Assembly (NCBI GenBank): GCA_015063395.1
Contig: SVUF01000009.1
Span: forward strand, 1 to 32,308
Source: Oscillospiraceae bacterium
Lineage (GTDB): Bacteria; Bacillota; Clostridia; Oscillospirales; CAG-272
Direction: 5' to 3'
Length of the DNA: 32,308 nt
Shown here: positions 8,052 to 29,321 of the stretch, piece by piece
Layout of the letters: the number at the start of each line of letters is the position of its first letter
How positions within the stretch are numbered: position 1 is the stretch's first letter
Made by a program: the position numbers and the translations under genes
Notes under the pieces: generated by a model
The model's database searches: none
Seen by the model: the letters and a program-made list of their open reading frames with translations, nothing else
What the model was told of the DNA's origin: nothing

Positions 8052-9848
8052 ATGGATAATAATATGGACAAAAAAAGCCGACGCAATGATCAGCGGAAAT
8101 CTCCAAAGATCAAGCTTATTGAGCTGTGGCAGGACAAAAGAAGCTTCAAGAAAAGATTGCTGATTTCAGTCTTCCCCATTTTCTTCTTCTATTTTACTTT
8201 TGTATTTTTCGGACCCTTTGAGATCGCAATGTCAAATGCGGAGTCGATAATTTTCAGCCCTGCAAGAGTGGCAAGCACCATGGGAATTCTTACAATAGTG
8301 CTTTTCAGTGCAACCACCTTTCTTGTTTCGCTTCTCCGAGGAAAGATCTTTAACTTTCTCTCAACCGCCTTTTTTGCCGCAGGCGTTGCAGGATATCTCC
8401 AGGGAAATGTTTTCAACGGAGATCTTATGGAAGCCCTTACAGGCGATGCCATTGCTTGGCAGACAATGGCAGGCAAAATGGTCGGTAACCTTATCGTATG
8501 GGCTCTCATCATTATTGCCGCATATATGCTTTTGTACTTCAGCAGAAAATATTGGCGCATCACACTGAAATATGTATCGATTTTCCTTGTTCTTATACAG
8601 GTCATTGGAATCATCAGCATATTTATAATGCCTAAAACAGGAGAAACCTACGAAAGCGTCACAATCGACTCCGACGTTTATTTTTCCAACGACGACCAAT
8701 ATCTCTTCTCATCAGGTCACAATATTCTTGTGGTTGTTCTTGACAGATTTGACTATGATTATGTTGAAGATGTGCTTGAAAAGGACCCCGAATTCTTCAA
8801 AAAGCTCGACGGTTTTACTTCATACACCAACGCCACAACAGAATTTGCAAGAACCGAGCCCGGTATAAACAACATTCTCACTGCTCTTGGCGGAAAGGAT
8901 GCCTACAAGCTTTCCAAGGCAGAATATTTCAACACCTCATGGACAAAGCTTACAGGTACAAGCTCCATTGAAAAGCTTTCAAAGGCAGGCTACAATGTGG
9001 GCATCTACGGAGATATCTCCACATGGTTTGGAGATGACGGCTCACAGCTTCAGTATATAAACAATATTTCTTATGAGCAGGAAAAGATCAATTATTCAGC
9101 ACTTATCGAAAATATGCTCAAGATCTCCGCATACAGATATACTCCCATTGCCCTGAAGCCATTCTATTGGTGCTACTCCGATGATGTAAGCTCGGGAGTT
9201 TACACAGAAAGCGAAAGATATGTAATTGATGAAGCTCAATACTATGAGGATCTTGCAGAGGAGTTTTTTGCAGATTCCGACACAAAGCAGTTCAAGCTTC
9301 TTCATTTCAACGGCCCCCATGCTCCCTATACACTTGATGCAAACGGCAAGAGAGTTCCTCTCGGAACGGATGTTGTTGAGCAGACAATGGGTTCATTCCA
9401 CATACTTTACGAGCTTTTCGCAAAGATGAAGGAAGCAGAAATTTATGACAACACGGAAATCTTCATTCTCGGTGACCACGGATCAGCCGTATCCGACACC
9501 AAGCCCCTTCAGAAAGCTACAAGGATCGGTCTTTTCCACAAGGAAGCAACTGCCATTGGCACTGAGCTTGAATATTCAGACATGCCCGTATCACAGATCA
9601 ACGTACTGCCCACAATTCTCAGAGCCGCAGGCGTTGAAAATTACAAGGATTACGGCACTCCTCTTGACGAAGTCGATGAGGACAATGTAAGATATTATTA
9701 TAAGAGCGTTGTAAAAAGAGTTACCGAGGGCGGTAACAATCACGAGGCAGAGGTCCACGTTTATAAGATCACAGGGGACGCCTCCAACTTCAAAAATTGG
9801 GAAAAGATCGATGTTTACGAAATTCCCGACAATTGTTGGTTCTATTAA
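8052..9848 (+). CDS. LtaS-like membrane phosphotransferase (alkaline phosphatase/sulfatase superfamily)
   Basis: This 598-aa protein has the architecture of lipoteichoic acid synthase. There are five predicted TM segments (about 38-60, 73-95, 99-118, 142-163, 172-193) and then an extracellular metal-dependent domain. Visible motifs are VVVLDRFD (metal ligand Asp231), ARTEPG (Thr268, aligning with the Thr nucleophile of LtaS), HFNGPHAPY (418-426) and GDHG (474-477, metal site). A Thr nucleophile and the lack of a CxPxR sulfatase motif point to phosphoglycerol or similar group transfer rather than sulfate hydrolysis. LtaS is typically about 650 aa. The ATG at 8052 has only a weak SD (AAGG), with a second Met five codons in. 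It is the first gene of a four-gene operon ending in a CDP-glycerol-type transferase, which supports a role in a glycerophosphate polymer. Substrate and product are inferred. Confidence 0.82.
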   Translation: MDNNMDKKSRRNDQRKSPKIKLIELWQDKRSFKKRLLISVFPIFFFYFTFVFFGPFEIAMSNAESIIFSPARVASTMGILTIVLFSATTFLVSLLRGKIFNFLSTAFFAAGVAGYLQGNVFNGDLMEALTGDAIAWQTMAGKMVGNLIVWALIIIAAYMLLYFSRKYWRITLKYVSIFLVLIQVIGIISIFIMPKTGETYESVTIDSDVYFSNDDQYLFSSGHNILVVVLDRFDYDYVEDVLEKDPEFFKKLDGFTSYTNATTEFARTEPGINNILTALGGKDAYKLSKAEYFNTSWTKLTGTSSIEKLSKAGYNVGIYGDISTWFGDDGSQLQYINNISYEQEKINYSALIENMLKISAYRYTPIALKPFYWCYSDDVSSGVYTESERYVIDEAQYYEDLAEEFFADSDTKQFKLLHFNGPHAPYTLDANGKRVPLGTDVVEQTMGSFHILYELFAKMKEAEIYDNTEIFILGDHGSAVSDTKPLQKATRIGLFHKEATAIGTELEYSDMPVSQINVLPTILRAAGVENYKDYGTPLDEVDEDNVRYYYKSVVKRVTEGGNNHEAEVHVYKITGDASNFKNWEKIDVYEIPDNCWFY

Positions 9849-10750: not shown

Positions 10751-12865
10751 ATGGATATCATAGGCGAAATACTCGGAACTCCACTGGGCTATGTGTTGAA
10801 GCTTTGCTATGACATATTCAAGGATTACGGATTGGCAATTATCATATTTACTCTTTTGACAAAGGTGATACTTTTCCCTGTATCTCTTCTTGTTCAGAAA
10901 AACTCGGTAAAAATGATCAAAATGAAGCCCCAGCTCGACCAGCTAAAATACCAGTACGTTGATGACAAGGACGCGCTTCTTGACGCGCAAAGCGAGCTTT
11001 ATAAAAAGGAAAAATACAGCCCCTTTGCAGGAATGAGCCCTCTTTTTATACAGCTTCCCCTTATCTTCGGTCTTATTGATGTTGTTTACAGACCCTTAAA
11101 GCACATTCTGCACATTCCCGCAGAGGTTATAAACGCATTTGTCGAAAAAGCAAAGGAGCTTTCGGGACTTGCAGATCTTGGTTCCGCCCCTGAGCTTAAG
11201 GTAATGCAGCTTGTGTCTGACGGTAAAAACTACGATGCCTTTATGTCTCTTGAGCAAGGCGCACTTTCAGGATATGATGTTGGCGGATTTATTGAAAAAA
11301 TGCAGTCCATCAACATGAGCTTCCTGGGTATTGACCTTTCAAGCGTACCCACCCTCGCCTTAAATCTTTTGTTCCTCATACCTCTGTTTGCAGGAATTTC
11401 CGCGCTTTTGATGTGTATTGTACAGAACAAGATCAATGTACTCCAGATCGAGCAGGGATTTTTCGGTCGCTGGGGAATGACCATATTCATGATCGCATTC
11501 TCAACATATTTCGCGTTCCTTGTTCCCGGCGGTGTTGGTCTTTATTGGATCTTCGGAAACCTGTTTTCAATTCCTGTAATGTATTTGGTCAATATGATCT
11601 ACAATCCCAACAAATACATTGACTACAAGACCCTGAATAATCTTAAGGAAAAAGCAAAGGAAGAAGCAAAGATCAACCGGGAAAACAAAGCCCTTTCAAA
11701 AAAATATTACAAAGAGATCTGCCGCGGAGACAACCTTCAGAACATGGATCTTGTGTTCTATTCCGAAGGCAGCGGATTTTATAAGTATTTTGAAAACATC
11801 ATTGAATCAATACTGAAAAACTCCGACATTACCATAACTTACATTACAAATGACCCTAAGGACGCAATTTTCAAGAAGAACAATCCCCGCATCAAGCCCT
11901 ATTATATCAGCGGTAATCAGCTTATTACACTGATGATGAAGCTTGAATGTAAGATCGTTGTTATGACCACCCCGGACCTTGAAAAATATCATATCAAGCG
12001 TTCTAAAATGAAGAAGAACATTGAATACATCTATGTGGACCACGGCTGTACCTCTCTGAACCTTACCTACAGAACGGGCGCCCTTGACTATTTTGACACA
12101 GTATTTGTTGTCAGCCGCAGTCAAGGACTTGAAATCAGAGCCATGGAAAACCTGAGAAACACCCACAAAAAGAGAATTGTAAAATGCGGCTATGGCCTTA
12201 TGGACAATATGCTTGAGGCTTACAGCAAGAAGGAAAAGAAGGAAAACGAGAAGCCCGTTATCCTCATAGCTCCCTCGTGGCAGTATGACAATATCCTCGA
12301 CAGCTGTATCGATGACATCGTAAACGATCTTGTTTGCGACAAATACAAGGTAATAATCAGACCTCACCCCCAGTATATCAAGCGTTTCCCTGTAAGAATG
12401 GAGGAAATGTTTGAAAGATACAAGGATAAGCTTTCCGAGGACTTCATCATTCAGACGGATTTCTCATCAACCGACACGGTATATAATTCCGATATAATGA
12501 TCACCGACTGGTCGGGAATCGCCTTTGAATACAGCTTTACAACCAACAGACCCACACTTTTTGTAAACACACAAATGAAGGTTGTAAACAAGGACTACAA
12601 AAAGATCTCCATTGAACCCTTCGATATTACAGGCAGAAATAAGGTTGGACGTTCAATCGAAAAATCAGAGTGCTGCAACATTTCAAAAACCGTAGAAGAC
12701 TTCCTTGTTCATAAGGACGACTACGCAGAACAGATCAGTAATCTTCGAAACGAGTATTTCTACAATCTCGGATCAAGCGGAGAGGCAGGAGCTGACTATA
12801 TTATCCGCAGAATTAAAGGTCTTCCTCTCGGTAACACAAACAAAGATACAAACAAAGATAACTAA
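10751..12865 (+). CDS. Fusion of YidC/Oxa1 insertase domain and CDP-glycerol glycerophosphotransferase (TagB/TagF) domain
   Basis: This is a 704-aa two-domain protein. Residues 1-290 are a complete YidC/Oxa1 domain. They include DYGLAIIIFTLLTKVILFP with Lys38 at the groove-charge position, a cytoplasmic K-rich hairpin (50-90), MSPLFIQLPLIFGLIDVVY (95-113) and three further TM helices ending VGLYWIFGNLFSIPVMYLVN. A charged linker (295-320) leads to a glycerophosphotransferase domain (about 330-690). It carries VDHGCTSLN (429-437), IIRPHPQY (535-542) and MITDWSGIAFEYSF (583-596), the three marks of TagB/TagF enzymes that move glycerol phosphate from CDP-glycerol. The frame is continuous and the linker hydrophilic, so I see a true fusion and not an error. 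SD CGGAG. It lies 20 bp after the signal peptidase gene and is closed by a terminator. Confidence 0.9.
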   Translation: MDIIGEILGTPLGYVLKLCYDIFKDYGLAIIIFTLLTKVILFPVSLLVQKNSVKMIKMKPQLDQLKYQYVDDKDALLDAQSELYKKEKYSPFAGMSPLFIQLPLIFGLIDVVYRPLKHILHIPAEVINAFVEKAKELSGLADLGSAPELKVMQLVSDGKNYDAFMSLEQGALSGYDVGGFIEKMQSINMSFLGIDLSSVPTLALNLLFLIPLFAGISALLMCIVQNKINVLQIEQGFFGRWGMTIFMIAFSTYFAFLVPGGVGLYWIFGNLFSIPVMYLVNMIYNPNKYIDYKTLNNLKEKAKEEAKINRENKALSKKYYKEICRGDNLQNMDLVFYSEGSGFYKYFENIIESILKNSDITITYITNDPKDAIFKKNNPRIKPYYISGNQLITLMMKLECKIVVMTTPDLEKYHIKRSKMKKNIEYIYVDHGCTSLNLTYRTGALDYFDTVFVVSRSQGLEIRAMENLRNTHKKRIVKCGYGLMDNMLEAYSKKEKKENEKPVILIAPSWQYDNILDSCIDDIVNDLVCDKYKVIIRPHPQYIKRFPVRMEEMFERYKDKLSEDFIIQTDFSSTDTVYNSDIMITDWSGIAFEYSFTTNRPTLFVNTQMKVVNKDYKKISIEPFDITGRNKVGRSIEKSECCNISKTVEDFLVHKDDYAEQISNLRNEYFYNLGSSGEAGADYIIRRIKGLPLGNTNKDTNKDN

Positions 12866-14357: not shown

Positions 14358-15785
14358 ATGAAATTTACAAAGATTACAGCATTTGTTCTTGTAATTTGCA
14401 TGATGATACCCCTTTTGGCTTCATGTAAAAAGGAACCGACTCCCGCTGAAGTTTGGAGCTCTGCAGCAGAGCTTCTTGCAGCGGCAACAGATCTTACACT
14501 CAGCGCAAAGGTAACCCTGGGTGAATACACAGTCAGTGTGGATTACGCAGGAAACCGTACAAGCGGCGCAAAATCATACGATATAAAGATCGATGAAACA
14601 ACTTACCCGATCTACAGTGACGGAACAAAAAATTATTATTCCGCAGAAGATATCAAATTTAGTGTAAAGTCCTCGGAAGACAGCGACATTATGCGCGAGT
14701 TTATGAGCTTTAACCTTACAAACGCTGCAAGACTTGCTCTTGAAGACGAACAGATTACAGATGCCCTTATTGAAAAGAGCGAAACTGCTCAAAAGCTTAC
14801 CTTCAAGGCGGACGGTTCAACCTTCAAAGCAATGTTTGCTCCCGATGAAAATATTTCGTTTGAAACAGTTACAGTTGCTGCAGAATTGGACCTTGAAAAC
14901 AATCTTAAAATAATTAAGATCACATCAAAGGCAAAGGGAACAGAGTTTTACGGAATTCCTCTTCTTGGCGCCGATAAAGAATTCAAGGATCTTTCCGTTA
15001 CTATAGAAAATATAGACTTTAGTGCTTCCAAAGCACCCAAAGCACCTGAAAAGACCTCAGAATACCCCGAGCTTGTTGCTCTTGCGAAAACATATCCCAC
15101 GGGCCTTTTCTCATCTATGAAGGATTCCTCCAAGGTTGAAACCACCGTAGAAATGGATATGGACGTAATGATCGTTTCTATGAAGGTTAAGGCTGTTTCC
15201 ACACTTACAACACAGTATATAGAAGGTATCAAATACACAAGAAATATTACAAAGACAACAACTGATGCAATGGGGCAAAACCAAACAACCACCGAGGACG
15301 AATACTATAACGGTAAGGACGGATATACATACATTACAGATTCCGAGGGTGCAAATTATAAAATCAAGCTTGAGGAAGAAGAAAACTCCGAAACCGATGA
15401 TATTCTTTCAATTTTCACAAAGGACAGCAATCTTGAAGACGTTTTCAAGGATGCAACTGTTGCAGGATCAACAATTACAGTAAACATTTCCGGAGAAACC
15501 CTTCAAAAGCTTTTGTCGGACACCTCCGATTCTGATCTTGGTATGGATCTTGGTGAGACCGAAGCAACATTCAAGGATACAACTCTTACAATTAAGCTTA
15601 AAAACGGACTTATTGAAACAGTTTCCATGGATCTTGAAATTGAGGCAGAGGGAGACCTTATGGGAACAGGAACTTCAACTACAGTATCCGTAAAGGCTTC
15701 AATCTCCATGAAGTATTATACAATCATGGACGACTATGTTGCAGAAGCTCCCGAAGGCTACGAAAATTATGAGGATTGGACCTGA
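14358..15785 (+). CDS. Large lipoprotein of unknown function
   Basis: This 475-aa protein has a lipoprotein signal peptide: MKFTKITAFVLV, a hydrophobic core, then LLASC with the acylated Cys23. It is thus anchored to the outer face of the membrane. The mature part seems to hold two beta-rich repeats (about residues 35-230 and 245-465) separated by a Lys/Pro/Ala linker (SKAPKAPEKTSEYPELV). Both show alternating Thr/Val strands and a YYN/YYS turn, which resembles LolA/LppX-like sheet folds in general layout; I cannot assign a family. No catalytic motif is visible. The SD AAGGAG lies 11 bases before the ATG. It is flanked by terminators on both sides, so it is monocistronic or reached by readthrough. 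Confidence 0.8.
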   Translation: MKFTKITAFVLVICMMIPLLASCKKEPTPAEVWSSAAELLAAATDLTLSAKVTLGEYTVSVDYAGNRTSGAKSYDIKIDETTYPIYSDGTKNYYSAEDIKFSVKSSEDSDIMREFMSFNLTNAARLALEDEQITDALIEKSETAQKLTFKADGSTFKAMFAPDENISFETVTVAAELDLENNLKIIKITSKAKGTEFYGIPLLGADKEFKDLSVTIENIDFSASKAPKAPEKTSEYPELVALAKTYPTGLFSSMKDSSKVETTVEMDMDVMIVSMKVKAVSTLTTQYIEGIKYTRNITKTTTDAMGQNQTTTEDEYYNGKDGYTYITDSEGANYKIKLEEEENSETDDILSIFTKDSNLEDVFKDATVAGSTITVNISGETLQKLLSDTSDSDLGMDLGETEATFKDTTLTIKLKNGLIETVSMDLEIEAEGDLMGTGTSTTVSVKASISMKYYTIMDDYVAEAPEGYENYEDWT

Positions 15786-15812
15786 TTATAAATAAATAAA
15801 TAAATAAAAAAA

Positions 15813-15845
15813 GGCTGAAGATACAAAAATTTCTTCAGTCTTTTT
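15813..15845 (+). terminator. Terminator of the lipoprotein gene
   Basis: The 9-bp stem GGCTGAAGA/TCTTCAGTC (15813-15821 with 15832-15840, one G-U pair) is followed by TTTTT. An (AAAT)n microsatellite of about five units lies just upstream, at 15789-15807. Confidence 0.85.
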
Positions 15846-15846
15846 A

Positions 15847-16225
15847 TTTTGAACAGTTTTAAACAATATATTTGTGGAAATATTGTTTTTGCACAGTAAT
15901 CCACAAGTTTTGCACATTTTTATATTTATATGTGCAAAACTTGTTAAAAGTTGTTCAAAGTCTTTAAAAATGTTATTTTATTAACTTGATGCAAACTCAG
16001 TTTTTTTGGGACGTTTTTATATTATTTTATATGCTTTTACGCGATTTTTTAAATTATATTCAATTTTGCTTTCTTACTTTAAAGTCATAAAACAAACAAA
16101 ATGTTTTGAACAATTATGTTTTTTTACGTGTGTAAAAATAAAAGAGAAGTACACCGTTGAGAATAGTTTTGAACATTTTGCACACATCATTGTGCAAAAC
16201 GTTTATTCTCAGTGTACTTCCTTTT
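15847..16225. other. DnaA-box-rich, AT-rich spacer beside parA
   Basis: No gene is present. Exact matches to the DnaA-box consensus TTWTNCACA lie at 15887-15895, 15908-15916 and 16176-16184 on the plus strand. On the minus strand they lie at 15931-15939, 16129-16137 and 16191-16199. One-mismatch sites are at 15873-15881 and 15897-15905. Two inverted pairs are formed; the first sits in perfect 15-bp arms ACAAGTTTTGCACAT (15903-15917 with 15930-15944). A sister 9-mer, TTTTGAACA, occurs at 15847, 16104 and 16167. The middle (about 15945-16120) is very AT-rich. It may be an auxiliary origin or a DnaA-binding control site. Confidence 0.6.
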
Positions 16226-16227
16226 TT
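16146..16227. terminator. Large stem-loop with DnaA-box palindrome at its tip
   Basis: The lower stem GAAGTACAC/GTGTACTTC (16146-16154 with 16212-16220) stacks, after a 3-nt bulge, on TGAGAATA/TATTCTCA (16158-16165 with 16204-16211). An upper stem TTTTGCAC/GTGCAAAA closes the tip. Six T residues follow on the plus strand (16222-16227), overlapping the parA stop. The minus strand downstream is only moderately T-rich. It can end plus-strand transcripts running toward parA and perhaps parA mRNA itself. Confidence 0.65.
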
Positions 16228-16987
16228 ATATTCTTGTTATAAGTTCTTTTGCAATTGCTCTATATGCCTCTGCACCCTTTGACATTCTGTCATAATATTC
16301 AATTGGCATTCCGTAGCTTGGAGCCTCCGAAAGTCTTACGCTTCTCGGAATAGGTTCTTTGAATATTTTATCTGCATAATATTTTTTAAGCTCTCCAAGA
16401 ACCTGCATGGAAAGATTTAGTCTGCCATTAAACATTGTAATTATTATTCCAACTATCTGGAGATCAGAATTATAGAGTCCTTTAATCTTTCTAATCGTAA
16501 CCATAAGCTGTGATAAGCCTTCAAGAGCAAAATATTCACACTGCATTGGAATTATAACGCCATCTGCGGCTGTAAGACAGTCTATTGTAAGAATGCCCAA
16601 AGAAGGAGGACAGTCAATAAAAATATAATCATATTGATCTTTAACAGTATCAAGTGCATTTTTAAGTCTAAATGCACGATCATCAAGGGTTACAAGCTCA
16701 AATTCTGCACCTGCAAGATCGATATTAGTAGGCAATATGTGTAAATTCTTAAATTCAGTGTTTCTGATTGCAGAATTGACATCACAATTGCCGATCATTA
16801 CATCATATGTAGAATTTATTAAACCCTTTTTATTGATTCCTACTCCGCTTGTAGTGTTTCCCTGTGGGTCACAGTCAACCAAAAGAACCTTATATCCCAA
16901 AGCGGCTACTGCAGCCGCAGTATTTATTGCTGAAGTTGTTTTGCCAATTCCGCCTTTTTGATTAGCAAATGCAATTATTCTTCCCAT
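16226..16987 (-). CDS. parA: Chromosome partitioning ATPase ParA (Soj)
   Basis: This 253-aa deviant Walker ATPase works with ParB bound at parS. In Bacillus the homologue Soj also regulates DnaA. The deviant Walker A is KGGIGKTT (11-18) with the signature lysine Lys11; Ile replaces the more common Val. VDCDPQGNTT (Walker A', 38-47) and FIDCPPSLG (Walker B) are present. The ATG at 16987 has SD AGAGG. Its promoter is a perfect consensus. A parS palindrome sits 12 bp upstream of the -35, so ParB binding could control it. Gene order is parB then parA, the reverse of soj-spo0J in Bacillus. The stop lies within the T-run of a large stem-loop beside a cluster of DnaA boxes. Confidence 0.96.
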   Translation of the reverse strand: MGRIIAFANQKGGIGKTTSAINTAAAVAALGYKVLLVDCDPQGNTTSGVGINKKGLINSTYDVMIGNCDVNSAIRNTEFKNLHILPTNIDLAGAEFELVTLDDRAFRLKNALDTVKDQYDYIFIDCPPSLGILTIDCLTAADGVIIPMQCEYFALEGLSQLMVTIRKIKGLYNSDLQIVGIIITMFNGRLNLSMQVLGELKKYYADKIFKEPIPRSVRLSEAPSYGMPIEYYDRMSKGAEAYRAIAKELITRI

Positions 16988-17016
16988 TTTTATACCTCTT
17001 TTTAAATGATACTAAA

Positions 17017-17045
17017 ATTATATCAAATATAAAGGTAAATGTCAA
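17017..17045 (-). promoter_or_regulatory. Perfect-consensus promoter of parA
   Basis: On the minus strand, -35 TTGACA (17045-17040), 17-nt spacer, -10 TATAAT (17022-17017), 30 bases from the parA ATG. A parS site lies immediately upstream. Confidence 0.85.
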
Positions 17046-17055
17046 CAGTTTTATA

Positions 17056-17075
17056 AATGTTCCACGTGGAACATT
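17056..17075. other. parS: parS site 1
   Basis: The 16-bp palindrome TGTTCCACGTGGAACA (17058-17073) extends to a perfect 20-bp palindrome with AA/TT flanks. It is the ParB/Spo0J binding consensus in its fully symmetric form. It lies 12 bp upstream of the parA -35 box. Confidence 0.95.
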
Positions 17076-17095
17076 TTGTTTTTCTTTGTGGAATT

Positions 17096-17115
17096 ATTGT
17101 TCCACGTGGAACAAT
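17096..17115. other. parS: parS site 2
   Basis: A second copy of TGTTCCACGTGGAACA (17098-17113), again with 20 bp of perfect symmetry, starts exactly 40 bp after the first. It lies six bases from the end of parB. Confidence 0.95.
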
Positions 17116-17120
17116 AAATT

Positions 17121-18059
17121 CTATGATGAAATTGAAGAAATAGGGGAAATGTTTTGATTCGATGTGCGTTTCTTTATATTAATTATGATTTTAAATCCCT
17201 CTTGGTGCTCTTCTTTTATACATTCAATAGGGAGGCCGCTTTCTTCAAAGGAGTCTATTGTTCTATCGATGGTATTATAAAAAAGTCTTATATCTTTTAA
17301 GATCATTTTTTTCTTACTTGGTTCAATGATTTCAGCCAAAGATTCCATTCCGATAAGATCATATAAATATTCCTCTGTTTGACGTCGGCTTAACCCCTTA
17401 CTGCCAATATGTCTGATTGCAATTTTTCTCGAACTATGATCATCTATTTTGGAAATGCAAAGTATTTGATAATTTGAAAGCTTATAGCAACGGCACATTT
17501 CACGTTCATCATCATCAATTTTTTCAAGATCCAAAATGTTTTTAAGCATTTTCTTACCAATACATAGGGAATCGGCAGTTCCTTGAAAATCATTTTGAGA
17601 ACTGGAATAAATTCCTTTAATTATTTCATAGGTTTCAAAGATATCATAGTATTGTCGATGATAGTTTTCAATAAAAGTTAGTTTTGAAAGATTTTCTACA
17701 TCATTGGGTAAAATTATCGATTTAATACGTTTTTCACCGAGAAGCTTCAATGCCTTTACACGTCTTGACCCTGAAACAAGGGTGAAAAGACCCGTTTCAT
17801 CGGACATATCAATAGAAATTCTTTTTAGAAGTATAGGTTGAATCAATCCGTGTATTCGTATACTCTCCATAAGATGAATAAACTCATCATCGGCATCTTC
17901 CTCGTCTGCTCGCACACTGTCAAGGCAAATACGATCAATGGGTATCATGTGTATACTATCATATTCTTCTTTTTGTTTTTGAAGCGATAAAATTCTCCTT
18001 AATCTTTGAATTTCTGCTTTTAATTCTTCTTTTTCTTTATCTTTGAACAACCCTTTCAT
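17121..18059 (-). CDS. parB: ParB/Noc-family partition protein, divergent
   Basis: This 312-aa protein is expected to be a CTP-dependent DNA clamp that loads at parS. The first 35 residues form a charged, probably coiled-coil extension (KEELKAEIQRLRRILSLQKQ). The N-terminal ParB domain has GLIQPILLK (71-79), VSGSRR (95-100, GERR in most ParBs) and ENYHR (131-135, usually ENIQR). A helix-turn-helix region with TADSLCIGKKMLKNILDL and SRRQTEEYL follows, then a dimerisation region ending in a Ser-rich tail. The substitutions lie in the CTP-binding motifs but keep the key Arg pair. SD GAGAGG before the ATG at 18059. Two parS sites directly downstream support the identity. Noc is a possible alternative, but the parS-type palindromes and the neighbouring parA favour ParB. 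Confidence 0.88.
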   Translation of the reverse strand: MKGLFKDKEKEELKAEIQRLRRILSLQKQKEEYDSIHMIPIDRICLDSVRADEEDADDEFIHLMESIRIHGLIQPILLKRISIDMSDETGLFTLVSGSRRVKALKLLGEKRIKSIILPNDVENLSKLTFIENYHRQYYDIFETYEIIKGIYSSSQNDFQGTADSLCIGKKMLKNILDLEKIDDDEREMCRCYKLSNYQILCISKIDDHSSRKIAIRHIGSKGLSRRQTEEYLYDLIGMESLAEIIEPSKKKMILKDIRLFYNTIDRTIDSFEESGLPIECIKEEHQEGFKIIINIKKRTSNQNISPISSISS

Positions 18060-28877: not shown

Positions 28878-29321
28878 TCTTTTGAGAATTTAATTTTCAA
28901 TTTTAAGAAGTTTTTGAAGGGGTCACAGGGGAAACCTTTTTCAAAAAGTTTCCCCTTAAAATCCAAAAGTTTTGCAGAATGAATCAACACAAATCCACAG
29001 GTAGTTTTACACATCCAAACAAATTTTGGTGCAAAACCTTATTTTAGATTTGTATTTTAACTCCGCAAAAAAATACAAAATTTCTACAAAAACTGACTTT
29101 TAAACACAAATCAACATAGATGAAACATCTTTATAACAGATTTTTAACAAAAGAAAAAACCTGTATATAGGCAAAAAAGTGACTTTTCAACACTTTTGAC
29201 ACCCACAACAACAACTACAACAACCTATATAAAATAAAAAAATAAATTATATATTTTATTTTGATTTTTCACGGTGCTAAAACACAAAAAGAAAAGTAAA
29301 ACAAAAATTAAGGAGAAATAT
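28878..29321. other. oriC: dnaA-dnaN spacer, probable oriC
   Basis: No gene lies in this 444 bp. A dispersed-family hairpin GGGGAAAC/GTTTCCCC is at 28928-28955. An exact DnaA-box match, TTTTACACA, is at 29005-29013. One-mismatch candidates include TTTTGCAGA near 28969, GGTGCAAAA near 29030 and TTAAACACA near 29101. A triplet-periodic run (ACA/ACT units, about 29205-29224) is followed directly by an almost pure A/T stretch (29225-29270), as expected for an unwinding element beside dnaN. The position is that of Bacillota oriC. The number of exact boxes is low. Confidence 0.65.
28928..28955. repeat. Dispersed hairpin repeat downstream of dnaA
   Basis: Perfect arms GGGGAAAC/GTTTCCCC enclose a T5/A5 inner part. 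The surrounding GTTTTTGAAGGGGT and AAAAGTTTT edges match the elements near 5810 and 2529. There is no T-run, so it is unlikely to be a strong terminator. Confidence 0.7.

Follow-up and report, generated by a model that had tools for sequence, protein, structure and literature searches.

A lineage-restricted cluster of candidate DnaA boxes between convergent genes near the replication origin of an Oscillospiraceae bacterium, a possible DnaA sink

In an uncultured Oscillospiraceae bacterium, the non-coding gap that separates the 3′ end of parA from that of its convergent neighbour carries six strong candidate DnaA boxes, exact matches to TTWTNCACA, and up to seven weaker sites. This cluster lies ~11 kb to the left of dnaA and overlaps the probable terminator that follows parA. 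We give a probability of about 0.6 to the reading that it is a Bacillus-type cluster of DnaA boxes, close to the origin and specific to this lineage, which would act as an early-replicating sink for DnaA. How to initiate only once per cycle without datA, DARS, Hda and SeqA is a problem for which clusters outside oriC have been proposed as one solution, and this genome offers a case in which one lineage has such clusters and its relatives lack them at the matching place.

Gene neighbourhood of the cluster

The window, by which we mean the whole analysed stretch of 32,308 nucleotides, is one entire contig (G000:C68) of a 1.96-Mb genome in 143 contigs. Its parA/soj gene (16226..16987, minus strand; 253 aa, Pfam AAA_31 and CbiA) has its nearest named matches in MAGs of Clostridia and Oscillospiraceae, most of which come from animal guts, and 37 of 38 relatives have a ParA match. 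Upstream of it lies a ParB/Noc-like gene (17121..18059, minus strand) with a Pfam ParB_N match and a TIGR04285 score of 96.9 bits, which does not reach the cut-off of 315. On the other side, a plus-strand gene (14358..15785) encodes a 475-residue protein with a lipoprotein-like signal, recognized by eye, and no family match. The two ORFs end at 16226 and 15785 and enclose a convergent intergenic region of 440 bp (15786..16225) with a GC content of 0.24, in which the cluster is found. Searches of the analysed DNA returned no match to RNA families and no tRNA genes.

An earlier note on this DNA placed the cluster beside parA, which is correct as to adjacency: the cluster sits at the 3′ end of the gene, not at its 5′ end. 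The parA promoter region is located at 17017..17113 (minus strand), where TTGACA and TATAAT hexamers separated by 17 nt (17045-17017) agree with the consensus at 12 of 12 positions. It adjoins two TGTTCCACGTGGAACA sites (17058 and 17098) in the noc-parA spacer, which, from the consensus, we take to be parS. No DnaA box, even with one mismatch allowed, occurs in the promoter region (16988-17120). The cluster was therefore rejected as a parA promoter element, since it lies between two 3′ ends while the promoter is elsewhere and free of boxes, and the suggestion in the earlier note of a DnaA-controlled parA element is left weak.

Sites and layout of the cluster

The exact sites, three on each strand, extend over 313 bp in all, and the positions given in the earlier note were confirmed. 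TTTTGCACA occupies 15887..15895 and 15908..15916 on the plus strand, 15931..15939 on the minus strand, and 16176..16184 (plus) and 16191..16199 (minus), while the minus-strand site at 16129..16137 reads TTTTACACA. Position 5 is G or A in every one of them. Two inverted pairs are formed, as had also been reported: the sites at 15908 and 15931 are separated by 14 nt and lie within 15-bp perfect arms (15903-15917 and 15930-15944), and those at 16176 and 16191 are separated by 6 nt and form the tip of a long hairpin. The related 9-mer that the note had counted three times is TTTTGAACA, with plus-strand copies at 15847, 16104 (16104..16112) and 16167, the last directly abutting the box at 16176 (16167..16184). 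The first copy is followed, 10 nt on, by the near-box TTTTAAACA at 15857 (15847..15865, plus strand), and a further near-box with one mismatch, TAATCCACA (15897..15905, plus strand), lies 10 nt past the box at 15887. Boxes and near-boxes on one strand thus follow an approximately helical spacing, with gaps of 10, 30, 10 and 11 nt, and of 9 nt in the other half of the cluster. The DNA between the two halves is AT-rich, in agreement with the stretch noted earlier.

The hairpin (16140..16226, minus strand) stands directly 3′ of parA, and both of its strands carry runs of T. Its predicted RNA fold has an energy of -38.8 kcal/mol (z = -9.1), and it is probably a two-way terminator.

The number of sites is well above random expectation. 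In 2,000 dinucleotide-preserving shuffles of the 440-bp region (GC 0.24), the mean number of exact sites was 0.267 and no shuffle had more than 3. Allowing one mismatch raised the count to 13 sites, against 3.9 in shuffles, and the pattern TTTTRMACA gave 10 against 0.4. An inverted pair inside a hairpin counts as one event, and both pairs sit in hairpin-like repeats, so the cluster is better read as about four independent events than as six, which still exceeds the largest shuffle value. Genome-wide there are 304 exact TTWTNCACA sites in 1.96 Mb, and complete lists give 46 copies of TTTTGCACA and 65 of TTTTCCACA. A search for mixed-box clusters elsewhere covered 100 of the 304 sites; at least three further places in the genome have two or three exact boxes (contigs C3, C19 and C77).

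Sister clusters and conservation among relatives

Across the whole genome, only four places have two TTTTRMACA sites in direct orientation no more than 30 nt apart: the parA cluster, the gyrB-gyrA spacer (C36), the region preceding a DnaD-like gene and dnaI (C51), and the region upstream of queA-mnmG (C75). This search returned 10 matches, as opposed to 1 for a reversed-pattern control. The name dnaI is based on the place of the gene after the DnaD-like gene and on a match to DnaC/IstB-type ATPases. When reversed, C36 shares 44 nt with the right end of the window, at one mismatch, and this overlap falls inside gyrB, so that dnaA-dnaN-recF-gyrB-gyrA would be contiguous; C36 probably continues the window, which would place the gyrB-gyrA cluster ~5 kb to the right of dnaA, on the side opposite to the parA cluster. 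Between a PemK/MazF-like gene and queA-mnmG, five exact boxes were observed within 94 bp, all on one strand (L070:6069-6162).

We examined the corresponding places in relatives, using 30 loci per gene including that of the genome itself (29 relatives), from pools of 37 (parA), 33 (dnaD), 38 (queA) and 38 (gyrA) relatives with a match. Upstream of the dnaD-like gene (400 bp each, 11,600 bp), where the upstream border is partly extrapolated as several matches begin inside the gene, 21 exact boxes were found against 1.3 expected, and most of them are TTTTCCACA. At least one exact box is present in 9 of the 29 relatives (loci L272-L300) and two or more in 6; exact matches also lie in the dnaD-dnaI upstream region at L039:5200-5632. 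Upstream of gyrA there were 4 boxes, in 3 of 29 relatives (1.1 expected). Among four further relatives, G077 and G165 have inverted TTTTCCACA pairs upstream of gyrA, and G127 and G080 have no such pairs. At gyrA and dnaD-dnaI, box position 5 is C in some relatives and G in the genome studied here. As the boxes that relatives have at dnaD-dnaI, and in some cases at gyrA, are mostly of the TTTTCCACA form, TTTTGCACA is very probably the DnaA box of this lineage. The recurrence of boxes upstream of dnaD-dnaI suggests that in this family DnaA may control the proteins that work with it in loading the helicase; a limited literature search found no paper linking DnaA boxes to dnaD-dnaI or gyrA/parA in Clostridia.

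The parA and queA clusters lack such counterparts. The 29 queA upstream regions held no box (1.35 expected), and the DNA 3′ of parA in 29 relatives, which belong to other genera, held 1 box in 13,050 bp (0.7 expected) and no cluster. In another 80 parA loci, no cluster of three boxes begins in the first 450 bp beyond the 3′ end of the gene. Among the lineages examined, this is the only one with the cluster; as no relative examined has it beside parA, the conservation check proposed in the earlier note came out negative, and conservation does not support a function at this place.

Box sequence and the DnaA residue at the D433 place

DnaA of this genome (27447..28877, plus strand; TIGR00362) has the helix-turn-helix sequence DRNHTTV, in which N occupies the position of D433 in E. 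coli. We compared 99 genomes with D and 13 with N at this place, the present one included, setting apart one K and one S; 22 of 136 dnaA loci were dropped as no helix-turn-helix residue was obtained. In dnaA-dnaN spacers, TTTTGCACA makes up 8 of 36 exact boxes in N genomes and 7 of 263 in D genomes (Fisher p = 7e-5, kinship ignored), and the N genomes that have it number six, from three genera. D433 is described as highly conserved and, together with L438, as important for contact with position 7 of the box (PMC8235120). As these residues are tied there to position 7, a link between N and the use of TTTTGCACA, which differs at position 5, is suggestive only. We also considered whether N shifts position 6 from C to A, as seen in three genomes, and rejected this, since the 13 N genomes have 36 C and 15 A. 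In one relative (G010, L069), the corresponding DnaA sequence is QRKHSTV, with K in the position of D433, and the dnaA-dnaN spacer holds four copies of TTTTCTACA and no exact TTWTNCACA, so that a changed box specificity is possible.

Location of oriC and alternative explanations

The dnaA-dnaN spacer (28878..29321, plus strand) is the probable oriC. It contains a single exact box (29005), no exact TTTTGCACA, and, counting the exact one, nine boxes with up to one mismatch against 3.4 expected, a value reached by 3 of 300 shuffles. Boxes, CACCC, the trio-like tract CAACAACAACTACAACAA and an AT-rich run follow one another in that order, an arrangement resembling that of the trio-containing unwinding region of C. 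difficile (PMC7561715). The tract (29206-29223) consists mostly of CAA triplets, with the usual CTA form in 1 of 6; five or more such triplets, under a strict pattern, occur in only 6 of 114 spacers, and so we regard the tract as supporting, not decisive. The curve of cumulative GC skew declines up to ~28 kb, where it has its minimum, and climbs thereafter. Skew at four-fold sites shows no clear switch at 16 kb, and codon preference dominates that signal. The skew minimum and the trio-like tract point to an ordinary oriC in this spacer.

That an auxiliary or true origin has moved from the spacer to the parA side, one of the readings offered in the earlier note, appears very improbable. Exact boxes are denser at the cluster (6 vs 1), its halves are separated by AT-rich DNA, and the skew is nearly flat from 7 to 23 kb; against this, the minimum of the cumulative skew lies at ~28 kb and not at 16 kb, which, in the comparison of 16 with 29 kb that the note had called for, favours the latter, and trio-like tracts are present in the spacer and, in shorter form, upstream of queA, but not in the parA region (15786-16225). 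Nor is the place conserved 3′ of parA in the 29 relatives. The contrast with the single exact match in the spacer, pointed out in the earlier note, is real but ordinary for the group, in which 21 of 114 spacers have no exact box and 19 have one (together 40 of 114). An origin at 16 kb was thus rejected on skew, trio and conservation.

DnaA might instead act on parA or the convergent gene, for instance by blocking or opening the terminator hairpin, with read-through set by the level of DnaA. A box pair at the very tip of the hairpin directly 3′ of parA would fit this, as would the control of DnaA oligomers by ParA/Soj reported for Bacillus (PMC13220808), but the cluster lies past the 3′ ends of both genes, the fully consensus parA promoter with its two putative parS sites is box-free, and we consider such an action rather unlikely. 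It is also unlikely, though a degree less so, that DnaA has no part here, the 9-mer being either the site of some other DNA-binding protein or a side effect of hairpins and AT-rich repeats. The G or A at position 5 of all exact cluster sites, unlike the TTTTCCACA common in relatives, the lack of an exact TTTTGCACA in the genome's own dnaA-dnaN spacer and the queA cluster without counterpart would agree with that explanation. It fits poorly with the sister clusters at gyrA and dnaD-dnaI, where relatives carry canonical boxes, with the agreement of TTTTGCACA with TTWTNCACA and its occurrence in relatives' origin spacers, and with the matching sites outside the inverted pairs (15887 and 16129).

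Comparison with known clusters and proposed function

The features of the parA cluster resemble those of the oriC-proximal clusters of B. subtilis (Okumura 2012; IDAP-seq regions, PMC4447404), which have multiple boxes outside oriC, near the origin and in intergenic DNA: here several boxes lie within a few hundred base pairs, above chance (6 vs 0.27 expected), outside oriC but on the contig that carries dnaA, ~11 kb away from that gene. One known Bacillus cluster is also described as lying between convergent genes. The flanking genes differ from those of B. subtilis, and the TTTTRMACA boxes are known here from sequence alone. Deletion of six clusters outside oriC is reported to cause early initiation in B. 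subtilis (Okumura 2012 as cited in PMC13220808). In E. coli, an excess of boxes near oriC has likewise been argued to titrate DnaA (PMC12371093), as do the datA/DARS titration sites; datA works with IHF, whereas B. subtilis, in the account given in PMC13220808, is without IHF, datA and DARS. The bipartite oriC of C. difficile as described in PMC7561715 has boxes, a trio and an AT-rich stretch in the dnaA-dnaN spacer, as does the spacer in our window, but its halves flank dnaA directly, unlike the parA cluster, which is 11 kb away and without a trio. A lineage-specific base fixed at position 5 is also described for the boxes of Epsilonproteobacteria, where it is T by footprint (PMC5043019), in contrast to the G/A read here from the DNA.

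Titration is the best supported of the three readings in the earlier note, the sites being DnaA-box-like, close to the origin and arranged as a Bacillus-type cluster in a convergent setting. From the sites and their statistics, their setting, the sister clusters and the TTTTCCACA boxes that relatives have at corresponding genes, we infer DnaA binding, titration and an effect on timing. DnaA would oligomerize cooperatively on the boxes, which are phased, tandem and inverted. As the cluster would be copied soon after initiation, it would double early and draw down free DnaA, and the lower level of free DnaA would damp re-initiation. The clusters at gyrA, dnaD-dnaI and queA may add to this drawdown, and may also let DnaA tune the expression of gyrase and the helicase loader. 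A bolder version, which we hold to be improbable, is that DnaA of this lineage, with its N where D433 is usually conserved, drifted to the TTTTRMACA box, with new sites arising at parA and queA and inherited ones kept at dnaD-dnaI and gyrA; in the resulting DnaA network, particular to this lineage, the parA cluster, not oriC, would be the strongest DnaA site and set initiation timing.

Other features of the window

A 704-aa frame (10751-12865, plus strand) combines Pfam YidC/60KD_IMP insertase and CDP-glycerol glycerophosphotransferase domains, an unusual fusion, perhaps with a role in making a surface polymer. A sulfatase-fold membrane protein is encoded nearby (8052-9848).
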